39,807 nucleotides of DNA from a virus. The stretch spans positions 1 to 39,807 of IMG/VR virus record IMGVR_UViG_3300001282_000024; one strand, 5' to 3'. This document shows, piece by piece, positions 1-39,807 of the stretch. The position numbers and the translations under genes are program-made. Numbering within the stretch: the stretch's first letter is position 1; the number at the start of each line of letters is the position of its first letter. The notes under the pieces were generated by a model, which was not told the origin of the DNA, searched no databases, and saw only the letters and a program-made list of their open reading frames with translations.

Positions 1-690
1 CCCATGATCCAACCGACCCACAGAGGGTTCAGCTGACCACCAGTCTTGGATTCCTCTCTCTCTCTCTCTCTCTCTCTCGCAAAGACCTGTCTGGGCAGTT
101 GGTCCAGCCGATTCCGTACAGTCCCGTCCTTGTTGATCGATGTGGTCTTCTGACCCGCAGTATCCTTCCAGTCCCGGCTGTTGGGAGTGACCCACTTCTC
201 TTTCGCACAAGATCCAGATGCGTTTTCTGAGGTGGTTAGCTCCACAGTCGGCAGCAGATAACACTGTCCACGCCGCATCAAACCCGAGGTCGGCCATTTC
301 TCCGAGAACTCTGTCGAGTCCTCTTGAGGTAAGGGCTGGGACGTTTTCCAGGAAAACGAATCGGGGTTCCACTTCGCGAATGACTCGAACGGCTTCAAAG
401 AAGAGCGATGATTTTTCGCCATGTATACCTTCCCCCTTGCCAGCCAGACTGATGTCCGTGCAAGGAAATCCGGCAGCGATCACATCCACGTAGTTTCGCC
501 AGCCTGTTGCGTCAAAGGTCTTTATGTCATCGTGGATATGCATCTCGGGGAGGAACCCATCGGCAATCCTCTGAGCCAGCACCTTGCGGCAATATGGATC
601 AATCTCCACAGCACAAACAGGCGTATGCCCCAGTAGTAATCCACCAAGGATTCCTCCACCAGCCCCAGCAAATAGATGCATTTCCCGCAT
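1..690 (-). CDS. DNA (cytosine-5-)-methyltransferase, 3' end cut by window edge
   Basis: Seen: an open frame of 230 codons from the ATG at 690 that runs off the left edge with no stop. It has the C5-methyltransferase motifs in order: motif I (FAGAGGG, residues 7-13), motif IV with the catalytic cysteine (GFPCTDIS, Cys77) and motif VI (LENV, 114-117). The last residues (WWSAEPSVGRLDHG) resemble the stretch just before the final GNAV motif of phage Dcm proteins, so about 30-50 residues are missing. An SD-like GGAG precedes the ATG. Known family role: methyl transfer from S-adenosylmethionine to cytosine in DNA, often protecting phage DNA from host restriction. It lies directly downstream of the large terminase, in the same direction. 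A CT dinucleotide run inside the gene encodes a Glu-Arg repeat at residues 205-212, just before the conserved C-terminal segment. Confidence 0.9.
   Translation of the reverse strand, partial: MREMHLFAGAGGGILGGLLLGHTPVCAVEIDPYCRKVLAQRIADGFLPEMHIHDDIKTFDATGWRNYVDVIAAGFPCTDISLAGKGEGIHGEKSSLFFEAVRVIREVEPRFVFLENVPALTSRGLDRVLGEMADLGFDAAWTVLSAADCGANHLRKRIWILCEREVGHSQQPGLEGYCGSEDHIDQQGRDCTESAGPTAQTGLCERERERERGIQDWWSAEPSVGRLDHG
54..78. repeat. CT/GA dinucleotide microsatellite, 12.5 units, inside the methyltransferase gene
   Basis: An uninterrupted 25-base run of alternating C and T. On the coding strand it reads GAG AGA four times (Glu-Arg). A gain or loss of one two-base unit would shift the frame before the C-terminal conserved block. 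Confidence 0.95.
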
Positions 691-2939: not shown

Positions 2940-2965
2940 TATGCCATCGGACGTTACGTCTGGTT

Positions 2966-3037
2966 CCACGGGTCGCCACATGGGTAGGCAAAAGGCTCAA
3001 GGGCTTTCGGATGCAGGTTCAAATCCTGTCCCGTGGA
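2966..3037 (+). tRNA. tRNA-like gene, anticodon CAA (Leu), short variable loop
   Basis: A 72-base cloverleaf can be drawn by hand. The acceptor stem CCACGGG pairs perfectly with CCCGTGG, followed by discriminator A. The D arm is GCC..GGC, and the T arm is GCAGG-TTCAAAT-CCTGT. The anticodon loop CTCAAGG gives anticodon CAA after U33. The anticodon stem AAAGG/GCTTT has a G-G mismatch next to the loop. The variable loop is only about five bases, whereas leucine tRNAs have a long arm; the D arm looks more like tRNA-Gln. CCA is not encoded. It may be a divergent functional phage tRNA or a decaying one. The promoter at 2911 immediately precedes it. Confidence 0.65.
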
Positions 3038-3066
3038 TTGGCTGCCAGGTCGCATACTTCTTCGGT

Positions 3067-9195: not shown

Positions 9196-9612
9196 ATGAT
9201 GGATGCAGATCAGAAAATCAGAAATGCTTTTTCGGACGCTGAAAAGGCTGTACCAGATGCAGAATTGAAATACACGATTATCCGAGAGGCTTTTGAGTCT
9301 CACAAAGATGATGATGAACGACAGTACGAGTACATTTACGAGCGATTGGCGAAGCCTAAAAGGTCTGCTCTTGCCCGTGATATGAACGCATGGTTATATC
9401 TACATAAGATAGCACATGAACTTCTGGCTCAGTCTCAGATCTGCTTACTTAATGCTGAAGGTGAAACACCTGGCCCACTACTTGCCCGATTGCAACGCCC
9501 AGTGATTAGGTCGCCCAGGAACTGGAGGATTTGCGGCATCTGTGATGGGACTGGTGAAGACCCAACGATTGCTCATTGCAATGGATGCTGGGGACACGGG
9601 TATTATGTCTGA
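9196..9612 (+). CDS. Protein with a DnaJ-like zinc ribbon
   Basis: 138 residues; AGGAGG lies 5 bases before the ATG at 9196 and 8 before that at 9199, so either may be used. The N-terminal two thirds are helical and charged. The last 30 residues carry two zinc knuckles, CGICDGTG and CNGCWGHG, like the DnaJ CxxCxGxG repeats. The 3' end overlaps the helicase start by 8 bases. The repeats may mediate protein or DNA contact; exact function unknown. Confidence 0.75.
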   Translation: MMDADQKIRNAFSDAEKAVPDAELKYTIIREAFESHKDDDERQYEYIYERLAKPKRSALARDMNAWLYLHKIAHELLAQSQICLLNAEGETPGPLLARLQRPVIRSPRNWRICGICDGTGEDPTIAHCNGCWGHGYYV

Positions 9613-12010
9613 GCTAACCTATTCTGCGTTAATGGATTGCGAGTTTTCAACTTATCCGTACCAGGATGAGGCGATTGATAAGATTAGGTCATGGGTCTAC
9701 GAGGATGATCATAAAGCTGGAATTCTCCAGATGGCGACCGGATGTATATCCGGTGATGCAATCGTGACTATTAACCGTGGAGGCAAGGGTGTTACTCGGT
9801 CTCTTCGGGATCACTTTAGGCTTCAGGCTGACCCAAGGGTCAAACCTCATGTAGTAAAGCGTGTCCGAAGTTTTAACGGTAAGCACGTTGAATGCAATGG
9901 ATTCAGCCGTATCCAGTCCAGCGGGGTCAAGCCTGTTGTTAGGGTTCGATTTGCAAGTGGACGAGAACTCGTATGCACTCCTGATCATAAGATCTTGTCG
10001 TCGAATGGATGGGTTGAAGCAAAGGACTCGTCAGGCAAGAGTATCGTAGTCGAAGCAAGCCAACGCAAGTCCGGTGACCGGGAGCCGAAGCCTAAGAAGC
10101 GATACAGGCAAGTTAACAAACTTTACTATCACCCGTACGCTGGGAAATGCGTCTCGAACAGAAGAGGAAAGTCTCTAAGGCTTTATCGCGTGGCTTACCA
10201 TAGGCTTGTGGTTGAGTCTGAAATGAATGAGATGCCCCTTGACAAGTACATTGAATGCTTGAGAAACGGAGACATTGGCAAGTCATGGGTTTATCTTGAC
10301 CCAGCAGTAACCGCAGTTCATCACGTCAACGGAGATCATACTGACAACAGGAGCGGAAACCTGGCGATTATGAGTCATCAGGAGCATTGGTCTCTTGAAG
10401 GCAAACAAAGCAATCACCTGAACATCGGCAAAACGCTGGTTGAAACAGACAATGTCTTTGCCGTTGAGAATGCTGGCTGGATCGATACCTACGACATCGT
10501 TAGCGTAGACAAGACAAGCAATTTCATTGCCAACGGAGTCGTTGTACATAACTGTGGAAAGACCGTAACCGTAGGTATTCTGATTCGTCAGTTGATTGAG
10601 GAGGGGTTTATCTCTCGAGCCTTGTTCGCAGTCCACCGGACAGAACTTGTGAAACAGGCAATAGACACGTTTGAATTGTGCGGGCTAATGGTGGGTCGTG
10701 AGCAAGGTTCCCATCACGGGTTTGCCCTAGGTGATCCGCATGTGGTTTGCACAACCATTCAGTCCATGACCAAGCGATGCAAGCGGTATCAGCCGGACGA
10801 TTTCCAGTTGATCATCACGGATGAAGTCCATCACGCAGGAGAATCCAATAAGACATACTCATCCGTTTACGACCACTTCCCTGACTCAAAACTTGTTGGG
10901 GTCACTGCAACGATTGATCGGCCTGACGGACAGAGTCTGAAGCGTTTCGAGGAAGTCGTTTACAGCTACTCGCTTTATGACGCGATCCATGATCCTGCTG
11001 GCCCATTTTTATCACCTGTCAAGTTTGTCCGGTGTTCTCTGGGGGTTGACCTGAGGGGATGCAAAACAACGGGTAAGAATGGCGATTTCGCTCAGGGAGA
11101 TCTTGGTCGTAAGATCCAGCCAGCCATCGAGCTATTAGCGAACGCGATCAGCAAAGAGATTGAGGACCGAAAGAAGATCATTGTCTTCATGCCTGATGTT
11201 GGCTCGTCTATCGCGATGGCTGATGCCTTGAAGCAACTGGGACATGCTGCGGACTGGGTCTCCGGTGATAAGCCTGACCGTGATAGCACGATACAGCGTT
11301 ACAAAAACGGTCTCACAAAGATCCTTGTCAACTGCCAGATCCTCACCGAGGGGTTTGATGACAAGCCCACAGACTGTGTTGTTCTAAAGCCCACTCGAAG
11401 CCGGATCGCATACGCCCAGATGGTGGGTCGTGGTACGAGGCTTTGCAAAGATAAATCAGACTGTTTGATTCTGGATTTCTCACACACGACAGACATGGAT
11501 CTGATTGGGCCAAGCTCGTTGACAGATTGTGAGGAGGTTGATTCCAAGCGTGCTGAGGAGTTGGTCGAGGAGGGTGTTGATCTGTGGCAAGCTGTGGAGC
11601 GAGCCAAGACGGAACGTAAACAACGACAGGAGATCAAGGTTCCGGTTGCCAGGCTGGACATGAGTTATCGGCGGGTCGAGATTAATCCATTTGAGCTTGC
11701 GGCTTCATTGGGTGTGTCCCGAGCCATGCTGACCAACGCCAATCGATTCGGAGAGCTTGCGACTCCCGCCCAGAAGGATTTTCTGAACAAGTCTGGGATG
11801 GCAGATGTCAATAACATGACCAAGCGTCAGGCTTCGCAGTTGATCGGCCAGATCATTGACAGACGAAACTCGGGGCTGTGTTCGATCAAACAGTTGAACT
11901 ACCTGATTTCGCTGGGGATGAAGCCTGAAAAGGCTCGAGGATTGCAGTTTGGACAGGCAGCAGAAGCGATTCAAAAGTACAGGTCGAATCAGGCTGGATC
12001 GCAAGAGTAA
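9605..12010 (+). CDS. SF2 (DEAD/DEAH-like) helicase, interrupted by an intein
   Basis: 801 residues as encoded, 531 after intein removal. The ATG at 9605 (MSELTYSAL) is chosen because upstream codons overlap the zinc-ribbon gene. A Q-motif-like YPYQDEAI is followed by Walker A MATG/CGKT, split by the intein at 47-316. Motif II is DEVHH (406-410), motif III GVTATI, then IIVFMPDVGSS, motif V LTEGFDD and motif VI QMVGRGTR (from about 605). The C-terminal region (PATPAQKDFL-like repeats ending QFGQAAEAIQKYR) is an accessory domain that recurs in such helicases. Known role: ATP-dependent DNA unwinding or branch migration in replication or recombination. It can act only after protein splicing restores the P-loop. 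Confidence 0.92.
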   Translation: MSELTYSALMDCEFSTYPYQDEAIDKIRSWVYEDDHKAGILQMATGCISGDAIVTINRGGKGVTRSLRDHFRLQADPRVKPHVVKRVRSFNGKHVECNGFSRIQSSGVKPVVRVRFASGRELVCTPDHKILSSNGWVEAKDSSGKSIVVEASQRKSGDREPKPKKRYRQVNKLYYHPYAGKCVSNRRGKSLRLYRVAYHRLVVESEMNEMPLDKYIECLRNGDIGKSWVYLDPAVTAVHHVNGDHTDNRSGNLAIMSHQEHWSLEGKQSNHLNIGKTLVETDNVFAVENAGWIDTYDIVSVDKTSNFIANGVVVHNCGKTVTVGILIRQLIEEGFISRALFAVHRTELVKQAIDTFELCGLMVGREQGSHHGFALGDPHVVCTTIQSMTKRCKRYQPDDFQLIITDEVHHAGESNKTYSSVYDHFPDSKLVGVTATIDRPDGQSLKRFEEVVYSYSLYDAIHDPAGPFLSPVKFVRCSLGVDLRGCKTTGKNGDFAQGDLGRKIQPAIELLANAISKEIEDRKKIIVFMPDVGSSIAMADALKQLGHAADWVSGDKPDRDSTIQRYKNGLTKILVNCQILTEGFDDKPTDCVVLKPTRSRIAYAQMVGRGTRLCKDKSDCLILDFSHTTDMDLIGPSSLTDCEEVDSKRAEELVEEGVDLWQAVERAKTERKQRQEIKVPVARLDMSYRRVEINPFELAASLGVSRAMLTNANRFGELATPAQKDFLNKSGMADVNNMTKRQASQLIGQIIDRRNSGLCSIKQLNYLISLGMKPEKARGLQFGQAAEAIQKYRSNQAGSQE
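9743..10552 (+). mobile_element. Intein with HNH homing endonuclease in the helicase Walker A motif
   Basis: 270 codons from Cys1 (CISGDAIVTI) to the terminal His-Asn (VVVHN), followed by Cys+1 of the extein (CGKT). Splicing blocks are visible: block A at the start, block B TPDHKILSSNGWVEAKD, and blocks F/G DTYDIVSVDKTSNFIANGVVVHN. Between them lies an HNH nuclease: VHHVNGDHTDNRSGNLAIMSHQEHW, preceded by a basic segment. Exact removal yields MATGCGKTV, an intact P-loop. Known role: self-splicing plus cleavage of intein-free helicase alleles to spread. Confidence 0.93.
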
Positions 12011-28618: not shown

Positions 28619-28939
28619 CTAAATCTTTTCCGGTTCTGCCGTGTAGTCTCCCGCACGAAAAACGCTCACTGTCTTCAGGTATTTGTCGTGGGTCTGATCG
28701 GCCAAGAGGAGTTTTAGTTGCTGACGGAGTTCGTCCATGACCAGGTCGTCTTCGCTACTTAACTGCATTTGAGAGGCATGTAGCCAGACGCCCAGAAGCG
28801 ATTGCAATCGGGAGTGATGCAGGACACAGGCTTGAAAGCCTTCGTTATCTTGAACGTCAATTTGCTCGAGATCGACCAGTAGCGAATCAATCGGAGACTT
28901 TTTCGTGACTTCATCGTCGCCGTCTGGTTCTTGAGGCAT
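28619..28939 (-). CDS. Hypothetical acidic protein after the lysis-type genes
   Basis: 106 residues, acidic N-terminus (MPQEPDGDDEVTKKSP), then helices (LQSLLGVWLHASQMQLSSEDDLVMDELRQQLKLLLADQ). No family recognised. It is the last gene of the cluster that begins near 31403 and overlaps the small membrane protein upstream by 29 bases. Confidence 0.6.
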   Translation of the reverse strand: MPQEPDGDDEVTKKSPIDSLLVDLEQIDVQDNEGFQACVLHHSRLQSLLGVWLHASQMQLSSEDDLVMDELRQQLKLLLADQTHDKYLKTVSVFRAGDYTAEPEKI

Positions 28940-29024
28940 GTCTGATAGTCCCTATTGCCAGAGCGATTGTGTTGAAGATCAAGTACAGGTAGAAATACAG
29001 CAGGAACAAAGACCAGGCTACCAA
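28911..29024 (-). CDS. Tiny membrane protein after the papain-like protease (TTG start)
   Basis: 37 residues from a TTG overlapping the protease stop: VAWSLFLLYFYLYLIFNTIALAIGTI forms one strongly hydrophobic segment, followed by the basic tail RHASRTRRRR. The positive-inside tail and position in a lysis-type cluster suggest a pinholin- or spanin-like helper. No strong ribosome site is seen, so translation would depend on re-initiation at the overlapping stop. Confidence 0.4.
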   Translation of the reverse strand: MVAWSLFLLYFYLYLIFNTIALAIGTIRHASRTRRRR

Positions 29025-29926
29025 TTGAGTTTCGCCCAGGGGATTTCTTTACGAGTCCAGCCAGCCAGATCGCTAAAGGCCCAGGAATCACCCTCTTTAA
29101 GCATGCTTTCCGCAGTTTTCTTGCGGATCTTGAAGCTACCAGCGGGCATCCAGTCGGGTTTCGGGCCTGAGATCCAGTCGTTGCCCCATGAGTTCAGGAT
29201 CACTGCGGACTCGTCTGAGAGGTCAATCCCAATGATGATCATCTGGTGCGACCATGAGCCTTTAGGGGCTGAGAATCCGTTTGCATCACGCTTATAACTG
29301 AACCCCTGATCGGAAGCGACTGTGACTGGGTAGCCAGAGGTAATTGCACTGACGAGTTCATCCCACTCGTCCACCTTGGCGTAAGACTTGATTGGGTGGA
29401 GCTTTGCTGTAGGCTCGAGGTCGTCAGGAACACCTTTACGGGCATAACTTGAGCAGCAGAGGGCTGCACTGTAATTTGTAAGATCTACGGATGCATATTT
29501 CTTACGGGGGAGAACGCCGTATTTCTGCAAATACTGGGCCGCCCAAGCTCCGACAGAGCCTTCCCCTGAAATCCTACCACCACCAATTTCGACACGACTT
29601 CCCCAGTAAATGGACATGCAGTCAAGGCGACCGGGATTTTCAGCACCTTTATCTGTTATGTCTTCGGCCACAAGAATTTCTGCCGCCATAGCAGCACCGT
29701 TAGCAACGCATGATCCGCATGAACCCTGATTGTAAATCCATTTGTCCTTACCCCAGACCATGTCCATGTACCTTGTCAGTATGACAGGCCCAGTGGGAGC
29801 GGAGTCCATGAGGTGGGGGGCAGTTGCGGAAAAGCCTTGAATTCCGTTTTCGGAGACGATTCGAGCGACTTCCTGTGGGTCTTTATGCCAGCCGAAGCCG
29901 AAATTGAGAGCGTCATAAGGGGTCAT
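29018..29926 (-). CDS. Papain-like (C1) cysteine protease
   Basis: 302 residues. The papain active-site layout is intact: oxyanion Gln67 and nucleophile Cys73 in NQGSCGSCVANGAA, His227 in WSHQMIIIGID, and Asn245 in ILNSWG. The usual Trp after the catalytic Cys is Val. There is no signal peptide and no clear inhibitory propeptide, only about 60 residues before the catalytic block. It is surrounded by small predicted membrane proteins, while no lysozyme, amidase or transglycosylase is recognisable in the window. A role in lysis of a protein-rich cell envelope is therefore plausible; virion maturation or host protein attack are alternatives. Confidence 0.85.
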   Translation of the reverse strand: MTPYDALNFGFGWHKDPQEVARIVSENGIQGFSATAPHLMDSAPTGPVILTRYMDMVWGKDKWIYNQGSCGSCVANGAAMAAEILVAEDITDKGAENPGRLDCMSIYWGSRVEIGGGRISGEGSVGAWAAQYLQKYGVLPRKKYASVDLTNYSAALCCSSYARKGVPDDLEPTAKLHPIKSYAKVDEWDELVSAITSGYPVTVASDQGFSYKRDANGFSAPKGSWSHQMIIIGIDLSDESAVILNSWGNDWISGPKPDWMPAGSFKIRKKTAESMLKEGDSWAFSDLAGWTRKEIPWAKLNW

Positions 29927-30423
29927 TTGCTCAACTCCTCACAGGCTTTCTTGATTTCAGCTAATGCCGCCAGCAGTTCTTCGCGTGTCTTGTACCCCTT
30001 GCTTGCAAGCAGATCGCCAAGAGCCACGCCAGACCAATAAGTCCGAATCCCATTATCGTCAGCACTCTTTGCCAATACTCCGATGACCTGAGCCATGTCG
30101 AGGCCCAACGCTCCAGCCTGTGCTTCAGTTATCTGTATCGATTTGTCGAGGGCTAATGCCCCTTGCTTGCGTTTTGCCTTGTCAGGCACAGTAATGGTCA
30201 CTATGGACCAGAACTCGTTTGCAAGGCCTGTCAGGTTCGGTGGAACGGGCTTCTTTTCAGGGTCAGTTTCCTGCCCGTCATAAGCCTTGACTGTTCCAGA
30301 TTGTGTTCCAACAACATACGTCCTGCCTCTATCTACAAAAACAATGGAAACTTCCGTCACCGGAGGTACATTGAAAGAGGGGATCGAGGTCTGCCCAAGT
30401 AGCATCAGTGCAGCGAAAAGCAT
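29923..30423 (-). CDS. Secreted or membrane-anchored protein, unknown
   Basis: 166 residues from the ATG at 30423, two bases after the previous stop (GTG at 30435 or ATG at 30462 are alternatives). The N-terminus MLFAALMLLGQTS is a hydrophobic segment like a short signal peptide or anchor. The rest begins beta-rich (VTEVSIVFVDRGRTYVVGTQSGTVKAYDG) and ends helical (LGDLLASKGYKTREELLAALAEIKKACEELSK). It overlaps the papain-like protease by 4 bases and could be its envelope partner or a spanin-like factor; not recognised. Confidence 0.65.
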   Translation of the reverse strand: MLFAALMLLGQTSIPSFNVPPVTEVSIVFVDRGRTYVVGTQSGTVKAYDGQETDPEKKPVPPNLTGLANEFWSIVTITVPDKAKRKQGALALDKSIQITEAQAGALGLDMAQVIGVLAKSADDNGIRTYWSGVALGDLLASKGYKTREELLAALAEIKKACEELSK

Positions 30424-30425
30424 AA

Positions 30426-30563
30426 TCAATCCCACCCTTCCGGTTTGTCCTGGTGTTCCCACTTCTCATACCAGTCGTCATCCATAGACCAGTAGAGACA
30501 CAAGGACAAACCGATAAGAATTCCAAGTATGATGTATCCGAAAGTGGCGAACACCCGTATCAC
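30426..30563 (-). CDS. Small single-span membrane protein
   Basis: 45 residues from a GTG in a 4-base overlap (GTGA) with the preceding gene. One transmembrane segment, FATFGYIILGILIGLSLCLYW, then an acidic tail (SMDDDWYEKWEHQDKPEGWD). Start, stop and spacing to both neighbours are tight, which supports a real gene. Holin- or antiholin-like candidate by size and position. Confidence 0.55.
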   Translation of the reverse strand: MIRVFATFGYIILGILIGLSLCLYWSMDDDWYEKWEHQDKPEGWD

Positions 30564-30742
30564 AGGCCAGCTGTCGCTGCGGCTACTGCTTTGGAAATAG
30601 CGTCTTCACGCTGAACCATTGCGGCTTTAACCGTTTCCTCGTTGAGGCTCACGACTTCGCCCCTGGCGAGTTGCTGAAGCAGTTCCTTAATCACTTCCAC
30701 GATCAGTGGAGTCATCAGGCGTATGATGAGTTGGGTAAACAT
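30560..30742 (-). CDS. Small amphipathic protein
   Basis: 60 residues from the ATG of a TAATG junction (alternative ATG at 30751). The N-terminus MFTQLIIRLMTPLIVEVIKELLQQLARGE is a long amphipathic or membrane-associating helix, followed by a charged helix (EETVKAAMVQREDAISKAVAAATAGL). Function unknown; belongs to the cluster of small membrane-related genes. Confidence 0.55.
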   Translation of the reverse strand: MFTQLIIRLMTPLIVEVIKELLQQLARGEVVSLNEETVKAAMVQREDAISKAVAAATAGL

Positions 30743-30981
30743 TATTTGCATGCCCCGCTGGGACAGATGTAGATGTAATTCATTTGCGTTGCCGCTGGCT
30801 TGCTGTGGAAAAGCGATTTCCGTGGGCGGCGACCACCGTTGTTTGGGCGAGGCGGCAAGGTAATTAATTTGGCAGGGCGTTCAACCGTTACGATTGCTGC
30901 CGTTGGTTGCTGGACTGGATCGCAATTGCCTTTTGGGCATTCCGGCTGTGCGGCGTACAAGAAAATGGCTTCGATAAACAT
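30742..30981 (-). CDS. Small Cys/Pro-rich protein
   Basis: 79 residues. Two cysteine motifs, ECPKGNCD near the start and CPSGAC at the end, flank a Pro/Arg-rich middle (KLITLPPRPNNGGRRPRKS). The N-terminal FIEAIFLYAA is weakly hydrophobic. The leader carries AAAGGTGAG nine bases upstream, inside a hairpin repeated at 22415-22429. Function unknown. Confidence 0.55.
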   Translation of the reverse strand: MFIEAIFLYAAQPECPKGNCDPVQQPTAAIVTVERPAKLITLPPRPNNGGRRPRKSLFHSKPAATQMNYIYICPSGACK

Positions 30982-31067: not shown

Positions 31068-31403
31068 TTATTTCAGGTCGATTGTCTCTTCTTTGTCAGT
31101 CGAAGATGATTTTGATGTCGGGGAGGAGTTGGATTGCCGCTTCTCTTTGAAGCTCTTCACTAAGCCCGCACTTGCATATATCACAGCCGCAACGCTGTAT
31201 AGCAACTCTGCCCAGCTCAGATCGACATTCACCAAGTTGGCCCCCACCCAGTTTGTTGTGACAGCAATTGGGCCGATCACCCATCCCACATTGGGGTTCA
31301 GGAGGTCGAACGAGGGGTCGGGTGTTTGCATCGCTAAGATCCGTTTGGGGTCTTGGGGTGCGGTGCGGTCGTATGCTGACACGGTGGCGACGGAAGACGA
31401 CAT
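31068..31403 (-). CDS. Membrane protein with one or two spans, holin-like candidate
   Basis: 111 residues; GAGG lies 8 bases before the ATG. A hydrophobic stretch VGWVIGPIAVTTNWVGANLV is followed by a clearer span, WAELLYSVAAVIYASAGLV, and a charged Lys/Ser-rich C-terminus (KSFKEKRQSNSSPTSKSSSTDKEE), which is the common holin layout. Transcribed from the strong promoter at 31428-31457. Confidence 0.6.
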   Translation of the reverse strand: MSSSVATVSAYDRTAPQDPKRILAMQTPDPSFDLLNPNVGWVIGPIAVTTNWVGANLVNVDLSWAELLYSVAAVIYASAGLVKSFKEKRQSNSSPTSKSSSTDKEETIDLK

Positions 31404-31427: not shown

Positions 31428-31457
31428 ATTATAACCTGTTACTCGCCCTCTTGTAAA
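31428..31457 (-). promoter_or_regulatory. Strong leftward late promoter for the lysis-type cluster
   Basis: Minus strand -35 TTTACA (31457-31452, 5 of 6), 18-base spacer, perfect -10 TATAAT (31433-31428). The -35 lies inside the 3' end of the preceding gene. Predicted leader about 18-20 bases with ribosome site GAGG. Confidence 0.7.
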
Positions 31458-31699
31458 TACTTCATCCCGACCTGATGAGCCTTAAGCAATGCTGCCAAAG
31501 CGGATGCGACTGAAATCACGACTGCTGCTGCCGGACCTACATAAATCTTGCTGAGGTTCTCGAGGATGACAGTCAGAAGGGTTAGAATCAAAGCCGAAAC
31601 CGAGCCTGTTCCGAAAGCCTTTAGGAGCGTTGATTTAAGCTCTTCGACGTTGATGTAGCCCTGAAGGCTCGGCAGATTGTTCAGTTCGTCTTCGCTCAT
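31439..31699 (-). CDS. Two-span membrane protein, holin-like
   Basis: 86 residues. Acidic N-terminus (MSEDELNNLPS), two hydrophobic segments (VSALILTLLTVILENL and VGPAAAVVISVASALAALL) and a short hydrophilic end (KYLQEGE). Size and topology match class II holins. Starts one base after the nuclease stop. Confidence 0.6.
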   Translation of the reverse strand: MSEDELNNLPSLQGYINVEELKSTLLKAFGTGSVSALILTLLTVILENLSKIYVGPAAAVVISVASALAALLKAHQVGMKYLQEGE

Positions 31700-31700
31700 G

Positions 31701-32054
31701 TCACTCCCCCTGCTTTACGTTGAATCCAGATTTGATCATATGTTCTGACACAGATTCGATGCCGGTTTGGTGGATCACGTAAACTTCGGCCAGATAGCGA
31801 GCGAAGGTCTGCTGGAAGTCCTGGGTGGTTGTGATCACCAACTGCTTGCCCGATAGAAGCGTTTCCAGTTCAGCCTTGGCTCTAATGCCTTCCATTGCGA
31901 GCGACTTGTGCATTTCTGGAGCGTTGTAGCCTTTGAGCCGCACATGCTGCCGTGTTTGCATGTCAAAACCCAAGTCAATCATCAAGACAGCGGTATCACC
32001 ATCGACGATGCGTTCGAGTCTGGCTGCGTAGGTGTAATTGACAACTGGCGGCAT
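31701..32054 (-). CDS. Staphylococcal nuclease-family (SNase/thermonuclease) protein
   Basis: 117 residues. The SNase core is recognisable: RIVDGDTAVL, VRLKGYNAPEMHK (Arg39 and Glu47 equivalent to the catalytic pair), and DFQQTFARYLAEVYV (Arg86). No signal peptide. Starts in TGATG overlap with the preceding gene. Known reaction: calcium-dependent cleavage of DNA and RNA. In a phage it may degrade host nucleic acid or reduce lysate viscosity. Confidence 0.82.
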   Translation of the reverse strand: MPPVVNYTYAARLERIVDGDTAVLMIDLGFDMQTRQHVRLKGYNAPEMHKSLAMEGIRAKAELETLLSGKQLVITTTQDFQQTFARYLAEVYVIHQTGIESVSEHMIKSGFNVKQGE

Positions 32055-32299
32055 CAGATTGGCCTTGGTTTAGGTGGCACTGGGATAACGCTGGGATTCC
32101 AGGTGTAGTCTGGGTCATCCAGATAGTTCTGAAACACCGGAGCAGGCACATTAACGAGCTGGGTGACCAACTGGGCGTGCCGTCTGGAATCCACTGCATA
32201 CCGTTCAATTGCTTTTTGCCGTGCGAGGCGTTTCGCCATTTCTTCAAGGCTTGGCTTTTGTCTTCTCATGAACCAGTCCAACAGTTCTTTTCCGGTCAT
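32054..32299 (-). CDS. Small helical protein, unknown
   Basis: 81 residues from the ATG at 32299 (ATGA overlap with the upstream gene). A basic helical N-terminus (LLDWFMRRQKPSLEEMAKRLARQKAIERYAVDSRRHAQLV) and a Pro-rich end (NPSVIPVPPKPRPI). No family recognised. The longer open frame up to 32422 overlaps the membrane protein gene and is not favoured. Confidence 0.6.
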   Translation of the reverse strand: MTGKELLDWFMRRQKPSLEEMAKRLARQKAIERYAVDSRRHAQLVTQLVNVPAPVFQNYLDDPDYTWNPSVIPVPPKPRPI

Positions 32300-32502
32300 T
32301 TTAGCCCTCTTGGAACGGTGAAGCAGTGGCCCAGGACGATTCCAACACCGAGTGCAAAGCTGAGACTGTGCTGATTGACTTCCCAGATCGCCTCGCTCCA
32401 GGTTGTGCCGCCGCTTTGCCACTTGATCAGATCAACAATCAGCAGCACGATTGCAACTGTGATCAACACGACAAAGTTCTTAGCAGCGGCACTAAAGGTC
32501 AT
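32296..32502 (-). CDS. Two-span small membrane protein, holin candidate
   Basis: 68 residues. Two hydrophobic segments (FVVLITVAIVLLIVDLI and SLSFALGVGIVLGHCF) separated by KWQSGGTTWSEAIWEVNQH, with a short basic end (VPRGLK). Size and topology fit a class II holin. It is one of several such genes here, so which is the true holin cannot be told from sequence. Confidence 0.6.
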   Translation of the reverse strand: MTFSAAAKNFVVLITVAIVLLIVDLIKWQSGGTTWSEAIWEVNQHSLSFALGVGIVLGHCFTVPRGLK

Positions 32503-33080
32503 CAGATTGGCCCGTTGGATGTTCCGTTGGATGTGCCGTTGCCGTTGTTTGTTGGCCAGAGTGGTGGCAGGGATGCGAAGAATTCGCCCACGGTTGGAAG
32601 TGCCTGTGTGCCTGCCTGAACAGCCTGAACCATGCTATAAAACAAGCTCCAGATAGTGTCGCGATAAGCGATTGCGGCATCACCTTCAGACTTGTAAGTT
32701 GTGATGTTGCTCAGAGTCCAGCTTGTGGCTGAAAGGATGGAATCGTATTGCTTCACGGACACCGCTTGATCGAGAAATGAGCCGATGCCGTTGCCGATTT
32801 CGGTGAGCCTTTGAATTACATAAGCCTGTTGTTCTTCGGCTGTCAGATTAATGACCGTCCACGTATCGCTCACGAATGTGCCATCGAAAGCAAAGCTCTG
32901 AGAAAGCCGCTGTGTGGCAGGGTTAAACGATGGGATTGGCGATGGGGTGTATGGGTAATAGCCGTATGTGGCTAAACTCGCATCGTCGAGGGCATTAAAA
33001 TTGCTGACAGTCGTGAATGACTGTGGTAGCCACTGTGGGCCGGAGATTTGACCGTTTGGATTGACTTGGCAATATTGCAT
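32502..33080 (-). CDS. Fibre-associated protein or fibre chaperone, possible
   Basis: 192 residues. The segment SQSFAFDGTFVSDTWTVINLTAEEQQAYVIQRL resembles small phage proteins placed after tail fibre genes (fibre-assembly type, with 'W.vv.lt.EE'). It then becomes helical, with a Gly/Asn/Thr-rich end (NGNGTSNGTSNGPI). Overlaps the downstream holin-like gene by one base. Role inferred from position after the fibres. Confidence 0.55.
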   Translation of the reverse strand: MQYCQVNPNGQISGPQWLPQSFTTVSNFNALDDASLATYGYYPYTPSPIPSFNPATQRLSQSFAFDGTFVSDTWTVINLTAEEQQAYVIQRLTEIGNGIGSFLDQAVSVKQYDSILSATSWTLSNITTYKSEGDAAIAYRDTIWSLFYSMVQAVQAGTQALPTVGEFFASLPPLWPTNNGNGTSNGTSNGPI

Positions 33081-33089
33081 GACTGCGCC

Positions 33090-33836
33090 TTATGCGTTGG
33101 GGTATGGGGCTGTTGGTACGGTTATTGTGCGAGCGTATTTGGTAATTCGGATGTCATCTAAATAGCCATCCATTGCTTGTTTACCGCCAGTTGAATCTGC
33201 TGCAATAGCAAGAGGACGTACGTTGTCGGCAAAGATCGTCTTTGTTACAGATGTTGTTGTTCCGGTCTGCACGCCGTCTAAATACAGACGTAGATTGCCG
33301 TTTTGTCGTACTGCTGCAACGTGATACCACCTACCAGTTGACCAAGTAAAGGTTGCGCTCTGAGTCAAAATGAAAGACCCACCGCCCGCTGCATAAAAAT
33401 ATAATCCGGTAGAGACTGCGTAAAAGCCCCACCAGTTCCCTGGATTGGATTCCGGCCAAGTTGACTGCCCAATTAACTGATTTTCATATCCGCTTCCATT
33501 GCCGGGTGGAGCAGTCGTAAAATAAACCCAAGTCTCAATTGTAAAATCACCAGAAATTGAACCAAAAACCGTATTTGGATTGTTTATTTTTATGTAATTC
33601 CCGAGGCCATTTACCGCACTATTTGTGTAAAAATAGCCAGAAGCTCCACCAAACTTGCTCTGCGCCGTGCTGATCTGAGCATTGCCATTCACAGTCACTG
33701 TTGCTGCATTTGGCCCGCTGTCCACAAAACTCGTGCTGTTATTCGCCCCGTCCATGTGCAGCAGGAGCGAAACGCTGGAGAAATATGGGTCGCTTGTTGC
33801 CGTCTTTCGGGCATTGCGAATAATATTGGCTAACAT
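33090..33836 (-). CDS. LamG/concanavalin-like lectin domain protein (receptor-binding candidate)
   Basis: 248 residues from the ATG in a TGATG junction. A single LamG-type jelly-roll fills most of it: VSLLLHMDGANNSTSFVDSG, FGGASGYFYTNS, FTIETWVYFTT, WSTGRWYHVAAVRQNGNLRLYLDGVQTG, GYLDDIRITKYART. These are the standard landmarks. Such domains bind carbohydrates. The gene ends the fibre cluster, so it is a good candidate for the receptor-binding tip. Confidence 0.85.
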   Translation of the reverse strand: MLANIIRNARKTATSDPYFSSVSLLLHMDGANNSTSFVDSGPNAATVTVNGNAQISTAQSKFGGASGYFYTNSAVNGLGNYIKINNPNTVFGSISGDFTIETWVYFTTAPPGNGSGYENQLIGQSTWPESNPGNWWGFYAVSTGLYFYAAGGGSFILTQSATFTWSTGRWYHVAAVRQNGNLRLYLDGVQTGTTTSVTKTIFADNVRPLAIAADSTGGKQAMDGYLDDIRITKYARTITVPTAPYPNA

Positions 33837-39516: not shown

Positions 39517-39681
39517 GATGGGAGTGAGGGGGAGGCTTTTTCTGTTTTTTATTTTTTTCTCTTTTAAGAATTCTCGACAAAGCGCATGGCCGACACGCCT
39601 GGGGCCACGGCTCCGAAAAAATCGCGAAATTGTGTCACATAAACTAGGTGTCCATGTCATGAAAACACCCTGGAAACAAGT
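39517..39681. other. Noncoding right-end segment
   Basis: No convincing gene. It holds a pyrimidine-rich stretch with runs of T (about 39537-39565) and GC-rich sequence at 39580-39612. With the adjoining repeats it separates portal from whatever lies beyond the window; a packaging site here cannot be excluded. Confidence 0.4.
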
Positions 39682-39807
39682 AAAGCACCGGCCTGATCGG
39701 CCGGTGTGAAGTGGTTGAAGCTCAGAAAGCAAAGCACCGGCCTGATCGGCCGGTGTGAAGTGGTTGAAGCTCAGAAAGTAAAGCACCGGCCTGATCGGCC
39801 GGTGTGA
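39682..39807. repeat. 49-bp tandem repeat with hairpin, 2.6 copies, at the right edge
   Basis: Units begin at 39682, 39731 and 39780 and differ by a single base at their junctions. Each contains the perfect hairpin CACCGGCC-TGATC-GGCCGGTG. On the minus strand the hairpin is followed by CTTTACTTT, so it could be a weak terminator for the methyltransferase side. The third copy is cut by the window edge. Confidence 0.85.

Follow-up and report, generated by a model that had tools for sequence, protein, structure and literature searches.

Endolysins are described as murein hydrolases, and the locus considered here raises the question of whether a papain-like cysteine peptidase can stand in their place. 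It lies in G000, a virus record from IMG/VR that measures 39,807 bases and has no terminal repeats; the record was analysed at full length and is hereafter called the window. The Pfam and PHROG matches of its genes include a terminase, portal, prohead protease, capsid and integrase, and the window probably derives from a tailed phage that is temperate and has a head of the HK97 type. Together with its relatives it constitutes a family of uncultured freshwater phages.

Several features of these genomes lie apart from the question (those of the window are listed in Table 1). The right end of the window carries a 49-bp tandem repeat with a GC-rich palindrome, present in 2.7 copies and truncated where the record stops; the assembly probably broke here, in the interval from the methyltransferase/terminase end to the portal gene. 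An open frame resembling a DNA cytosine methyltransferase, with an FPCTD motif, occupies the interval between the terminase and the record end, its translation having been judged by eye. A helicase gene contains an intein with an HNH domain inside it, and a tRNA-Leu(CAA), which may belong to the phage or be left over from an attachment site, overlaps the 5' extension of a RecE-like exonuclease ORF. CsrA homologues (PF02599) are found in the closed relatives, one of which (G005) has a histone-deacetylase-like gene as well; the coordinates of these genes (L084:14716-14940, L077:16653-17072 and L084:18249-19139) were placed by eye from gene lists.

A papain-family peptidase

The candidate lysis enzyme, here called C1, matches PF00112 (Peptidase_C1) with an E-value of 5.5e-7 and 30.3 bits against a Pfam cut-off of 20.7, as well as PHROG 16701, annotated 'peptidase' (5e-10). 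Residues Q67, C73, H227 and N245 are invariant across 11 homologues with identity down to 43% (alignment A6), and the order and spacing of these Gln, Cys, His and Asn residues, with the oxyanion Gln six residues ahead of the Cys, fit peptidase family C1A. The dN/dS ratio against close relatives is 0.03-0.07, which points to strong purifying selection. An AlphaFold2 model (pLDDT 73, pTM 0.79) predicts a papain fold: its best PDB match is xylellain of Xylella fastidiosa (3OIS, E 1e-10, TM 0.57/0.63), followed by cathepsins and papain (1PPN, E 8e-7), and most of its viral structural matches are proteins of phages and giant viruses annotated as C1 peptidases. Xylellain, the nearest solved structure, shares with C1 the PF00112 domain, the order of the catalytic residues and the fold. 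The intact catalytic set claimed by the first-pass annotation is thus borne out, and profile, catalytic residues and modelled fold together assign C1 to family C1A as a predicted peptidase.

C1 differs from the rest of the family in its identity of only about 20% and in being a phage cassette gene without a signal sequence or a recognised propeptide. No signal sequence was recognised in it, no propeptide family is among its Pfam matches, and residues 1-60, N-terminal to the domain, match nothing. An inhibitory propeptide is present in many but not all C1A members and is therefore not obligatory, so that its absence leaves the assignment standing. Searches by tblastn found no close relatives of the C1 of the window or of G005 in named phages.

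Organization of the cassette

The cassette that C1 closes encodes two-span membrane proteins resembling holins, together with small ones of a single span (Table 1). In the order of the coding strand, the upstream part comprises a 68-aa membrane protein, a 122-aa protein, a staphylococcal-nuclease-like protein, an 86-aa two-span protein and a promoter-like site; then come proteins of 111, 79, 63 and 45 aa, a 179-aa protein here called the partner, and C1; a 37-aa ORF, a 106-aa protein, the prohead protease and the capsid follow. C1, lacking a signal sequence, stands beside small two-span membrane proteins, and this gene order is conserved in relatives.

Table 1. Position of the cassette genes, the promoter-like site and other features of the window
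Feature	Coordinates	Strand	Remarks
68-aa membrane protein	32296..32502	-	one strong span over threshold and a possible second (hydropathy)
Staphylococcal-nuclease-like protein	31701..32054	-	PF00565 7.9e-5; PHROG 452 3.5e-24
86-aa two-span holin-like protein	31439..31699	-	hydrophobic segments 28-46 and 54-72
Promoter-like site TTTACA-18-TATAAT (11/12)	31457-31428	-	hexamers identical in 5 relatives
Membrane-protein candidate, 111 aa as called	31068..31403	-	motif NPNxGWxIxP...AAVIYA
79-aa small protein	30742..30981	-	hydrophobic N-terminus, CxxxxC pair; conserved in close relatives
63-aa small protein	30560..30751	-	N-terminal hydrophobic/amphipathic helix (hydropathy)
45-aa single-span membrane protein	30426..30563	-	one hydrophobic segment
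Partner protein, 179 aa	29923..30462	-	signal/hydrophobic N-terminus, beta part, proline linker, helical C-terminal domain
C1A (papain-family) cysteine peptidase, candidate lysis enzyme	29018..29926	-	302 aa, PF00112
37-aa single-span ORF directly after C1	28911..29024	-	one hydrophobic segment
106-aa protein between C1 and prohead protease	28619..28939	-	conserved in relatives
DNA cytosine methyltransferase-like open frame	1-690	-	FPCTD motif
tRNA-Leu(CAA)	2965-3038	+	
Helicase gene with intein	9542-12010	+	PF14890 9.5e-11
49-bp tandem repeat	39678-39807		

The label 'holin-like' is a judgement from size, hydropathy and spans, and position. None of the membrane proteins of the cassette matches a known holin family in Pfam, and the sole PHROG holin hit is a weak one (E 0.07) of the 68-aa protein, which is 97% identical in G005. 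The 86-aa protein, 30-73% identical among relatives, matches no holin family in Pfam or PHROGs. Two-span holin-like proteins had been proposed upstream of the protease; this holds for the 86-aa protein, while the 68-aa protein has one segment over the threshold and only a possible second. The tiny single-span proteins said to flank the enzyme are there in the form of the 45-aa and 37-aa ORFs, and between the former and C1 lies the partner with its N-terminal hydrophobic segment.

Conservation of these genes is uneven. Homologues of the 111-aa protein begin further in than the gene as called, near 'MQTPD', and are 31-73% identical in L013, L023, L073 and L074 (alignment A9). The 79-aa protein, which is possibly exported to judge from its N-terminus, is 28% identical in L013, and look-alikes occupy the same slot in L038 and L074; the 63-aa protein keeps 42-53% identity out to L073, L055 and L023, with look-alikes in its slot in L056, L074 and L038. 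The 45-aa protein (75-100% identity in close relatives) was not found in distant cassettes, and the 37-aa ORF (73-100% in close relatives, 50-51% in L013 and L021) is absent further out. Being conserved among close relatives only, these two ORFs are taken as real and yet as no core part of the cassette, the core of which consists of the 86-aa, 111-aa, 63-aa and 179-aa families.

The first-pass annotation had also placed the two-span genes under a strong promoter. A promoter-like site is indeed present and conserved in five relatives, but it lies 3' of the two-span genes, with its -35 half within the end of the 86-aa gene, and is directed into the 111-aa gene and onward to C1. Such sites are not enriched in the region (3 observed against 3.9 +/- 1.9 expected by chance), and the case for this one is made by its conservation, not by enrichment statistics.

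Probable exchange of the cassette among phages

In scans of viral contigs, 28 loci proved to encode an enzyme of the same type as in the window (type 1). The cassette is retained in L023, L056, L073, L074 and L076, phages with other heads: the portal and TerL of L023 are only 23% and 30% identical to those of the window, and L073 is part of G005, which has an SPP1-type portal and is closed, with a terminal repeat of 99 bp. The lowest identity at which the cassette recurs is the 41% between the C1 of L056 and that of the window. G005 and the window have 813 bp in common (32291-33099 of the window, 87% DNA identity) that end at the edge of the cassette, which argues for recent exchange between otherwise unrelated phages. 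The papain-like gene thus appears to be a member of a mobile cassette with holin-like proteins.

The capsids of L037 and L038 are 77% identical to that of the window, yet these phages lack a type-1 enzyme, and its slot is filled by a second papain gene (type 2, PF00112 3e-11). This lineage occupies the C1 slot in L038, L037, L061 and L112, of which L112 combines window-type holin-like genes with the type-2 enzyme. Types 1 and 2 share about 22% identity (blastp 0.05, hhalign E 2e-4), and both keep the Gln, Cys, His and Asn residues; a papain-fold enzyme has, on these comparisons, apparently been kept in the slot by two separate lineages. When the two holin-like families were used as queries to look for cassettes with other enzymes, no cassette with a murein hydrolase was found; the new loci were L112 and L113, which has no enzyme. 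L113, a fragment of 4.9 kb, holds both holin-like genes, the prohead protease, a related capsid and, as in L112, a counterpart of the 106-aa gene at the equivalent place, while at the site itself (L113:1813-2966) neither a papain nor a partner gene is present, the contig being too short to see either elsewhere.

The position of C1 in the window, between fibre genes and the prohead protease and capsid, would also be accounted for if it were a virion or assembly protease that processes a structural protein or aids entry through the envelope, and other phages are known to carry permuted-papain amidases on their tails (PMC9703825). However, the cassette is kept beside unrelated head and tail genes in the five phages named above, which makes a matched structural substrate unlikely; the proteins constantly encoded next to C1 are small membrane or exported ones, none of them structural; and the HK97-type members own a prohead protease. 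We consider a structural role improbable. Processing of the prohead or capsid in particular was rejected as a function of C1, as a caudovirus prohead protease is present (S78 in G001).

The partner protein

The stop codon of the partner gene overlaps the start of C1 (ATGA), and GAGGAG precedes the latter, as expected if the two were translationally coupled. In most cassettes the gene lies immediately 5' of C1; in some, one inserted gene separates the two. The interval between them is an insertion hotspot in several relatives, taking up PAPS-reductase-like or DNA methyltransferase-like genes (L009, L013:8566-9405, L021, L038:6829-8333, L061:1981-2844 and L056:1791-2411). Partner identity across cassettes ranges from 30 to 88%. 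The beta part carries the motif VPP..E..IVF.DRGR.Y.VG, and the predicted model of the protein has no PDB match below E 0.8. The type-2 partners of L038 and L061 begin with a lipobox-like N-terminus (LSGC), whereas the partner of the window has no visible lipobox. As for a two-component spanin, no inner-membrane coiled-coil counterpart of the partner was identified.

The partner of L112 resembles the type-1 partner in its N-terminal part (50% over 32 aa, E 8e-6) and the type-2 partner in its C-terminal part (32% over 100 aa, E 1e-17), and is a chimera of a type-1 N half and a type-2 C half. From this one chimera and the two partner types, we read enzyme and partner as a matched pair, the C-terminal domain of the partner having apparently been exchanged together with the enzyme type.

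A partner with a predicted export signal or membrane anchor would also suit some other task at the envelope, such as superinfection exclusion, remodelling of the host surface or delivery of an exported effector; the nuclease of L023 and L038 begins with a signal-like segment, and no membrane protein of the cassette belongs to a proven holin family. Against this stand the absence of a signal sequence from C1 itself and the layout of two-span protein, small spans and enzyme on the late gene strand, which is that of a lysis module; moreover, setting the cassette aside would leave these genomes without any recognisable lysis gene. Such a task for the cassette seems to us improbable.

Search for murein hydrolases

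The first-pass annotation had stated that no peptidoglycan hydrolase is recognisable, and the wider search agrees with it. No murein hydrolase was detected among the window's called genes, either in a full Pfam scan or with PHROGs, the latter applied to 30 of them. Pfam found none among the called genes of G001, which is closed (127-bp terminal repeat), of G005, or of G002, a 44-kb record without a terminal repeat whose gene order nearly closes, and left Peptidase_C1 as the only candidate in these three genomes. Six-frame searches for CHAP covered 10 records, and those for SLT, NlpC/P60, Amidase_2, M23 and phage lysozyme, in which the controls were detected, covered 14; nothing exceeded the cut-off in either set. 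Peptidase_C1 itself was detected in 12 of these 14 records, and in the other two (G005 and G011) C1 was recognised by direct homology. C1A peptidases are not known to be murein hydrolases. C1 matches PF00112 only, and may therefore act like an endolysin without being classed in an endolysin family.

Many tail and other late proteins of these phages match no family, in the window as elsewhere, which leaves room for an unrecognised murein hydrolase. Such an enzyme could do the main work of lysis, with the papain-like peptidase as an accessory that acts on envelope, S-layer or outer-membrane-linked proteins. The retention of holin-like genes without a papain gene in L113 accords with this division of labour, as does the Thermoanaerobacterium phage THSA-485A, in which a C1A peptidase is paired with a GH25 endolysin. 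In view of the negative searches above, however, we regard an accessory role in these phages as unlikely.

Host of the phages

A scan of genome contigs with C1 returned only generic bacterial C1 proteins (23-28% identity) and no prophage, the integrase of the window was not found in plasmids, and TerL and capsid queries matched many unrelated phages. Two relatives carry genes for proteins with a PEP-CTERM-like tail (L113:892-1467 and L013:5774-6325), each just after a homologue of the 192-aa gene. The L113 protein scores 21.7 bits against TIGR02595 (cut-off 16), and these proteins hint at a host with an exosortase.

Discussion

The recurrence of the cassette, the second papain lineage with its matched partner and the relative in THSA-485A make a role in lysis the best reading of this locus. 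That the genes at about 28.9-32.5 kb are a late lysis cassette with a papain-like cysteine peptidase in the place of the endolysin is a proposal to which we give an even chance. In such a cassette, C1 would be synthesised as an active cytosolic enzyme that has neither signal nor propeptide, and the two-span proteins would act as holin and antiholin to open the inner membrane. C1 could then escape and cut the peptide bonds that hold the envelope together, either in envelope proteins or in the peptides of a thin peptidoglycan. The coupled partner, exported or membrane-anchored and matched to the enzyme type, might anchor, guide or restrain C1, and the small single-span proteins may help to finish the disruption. 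Expression, passage through the holins, the substrate and lysis itself are all four inferred. The first-pass proposal of lysis by a papain-like enzyme is in this way supported in part: the mobile holin-like cassette, the two papain lineages and the lack of a recognisable murein hydrolase in the window, G001, G005 and G002 speak for it, while L113, with no papain gene at the site, counts against an absolute need for the enzyme.

The likeness to the canonical holin-endolysin cassette lies in the small two-span proteins, the late operon, an enzyme without a signal sequence and possible spanin-like helpers; the difference is that the window has a peptidase of the papain family as the enzyme and lacks a recognisable murein hydrolase. 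A parallel is offered by the lysis module of THSA-485A, where the C1A peptidase (YP_006546279.1) has the GH25 endolysin on one side and, on the other, a holin-like protein that carries a span at its N-terminus. This enzyme shares 27% identity with the type-2 enzymes (E about 1e-9) and only 23%, over 141 aa, with that of the window. Papain enzymes thus do occur in lysis modules; in THSA-485A, however, the gene adjoins a real endolysin and may be accessory, as a second enzyme, the host is a member of the Firmicutes, and no partner like that of the window was seen. In the Leptospira TA-TA prophage, a holin/antiholin pair is accompanied by a cysteine protease proposed as the endolysin (PMC8705779); the likeness is one of description only, the portion of that paper drawn on here giving no protease family. 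The N5 domain of mycobacteriophage LysA is a papain-group cysteine-protease domain in endolysins (PMC3314691), and differs in its C39-like matches, its multi-domain setting and its predicted action on peptidoglycan peptides. No report of lysis by a C1A protease was found in the literature searched, the coverage of which is incomplete.

The strongest form of the proposal holds that a C1A protease, delivered by holins and accompanied by an exchangeable exported partner, is the sole lytic enzyme and cuts envelope proteins rather than murein in a host whose envelope depends on protein. This form is tentative and on balance somewhat doubtful, and its claim of a protein target depends on the envelope of the host. 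A holin cassette with a papain-family peptidase as its only enzyme, kept by otherwise unrelated phages and in some of them filled from another papain lineage, suggests that some phages end their infection by proteolysis. Recurrence down to the identity seen in L056 with unrelated head and tail genes, the second lineage, the exchange of partner domains and the relative in THSA-485A all go beyond the first-pass annotation, and the partner represents a protein family without a recognised fold, the C-terminal domain of which varies with the enzyme type. If this is true, the hosts of such phages would owe the strength of their envelope to protein or to papain-cleavable peptides, which would bear on the debate about planctomycete-like cell walls.
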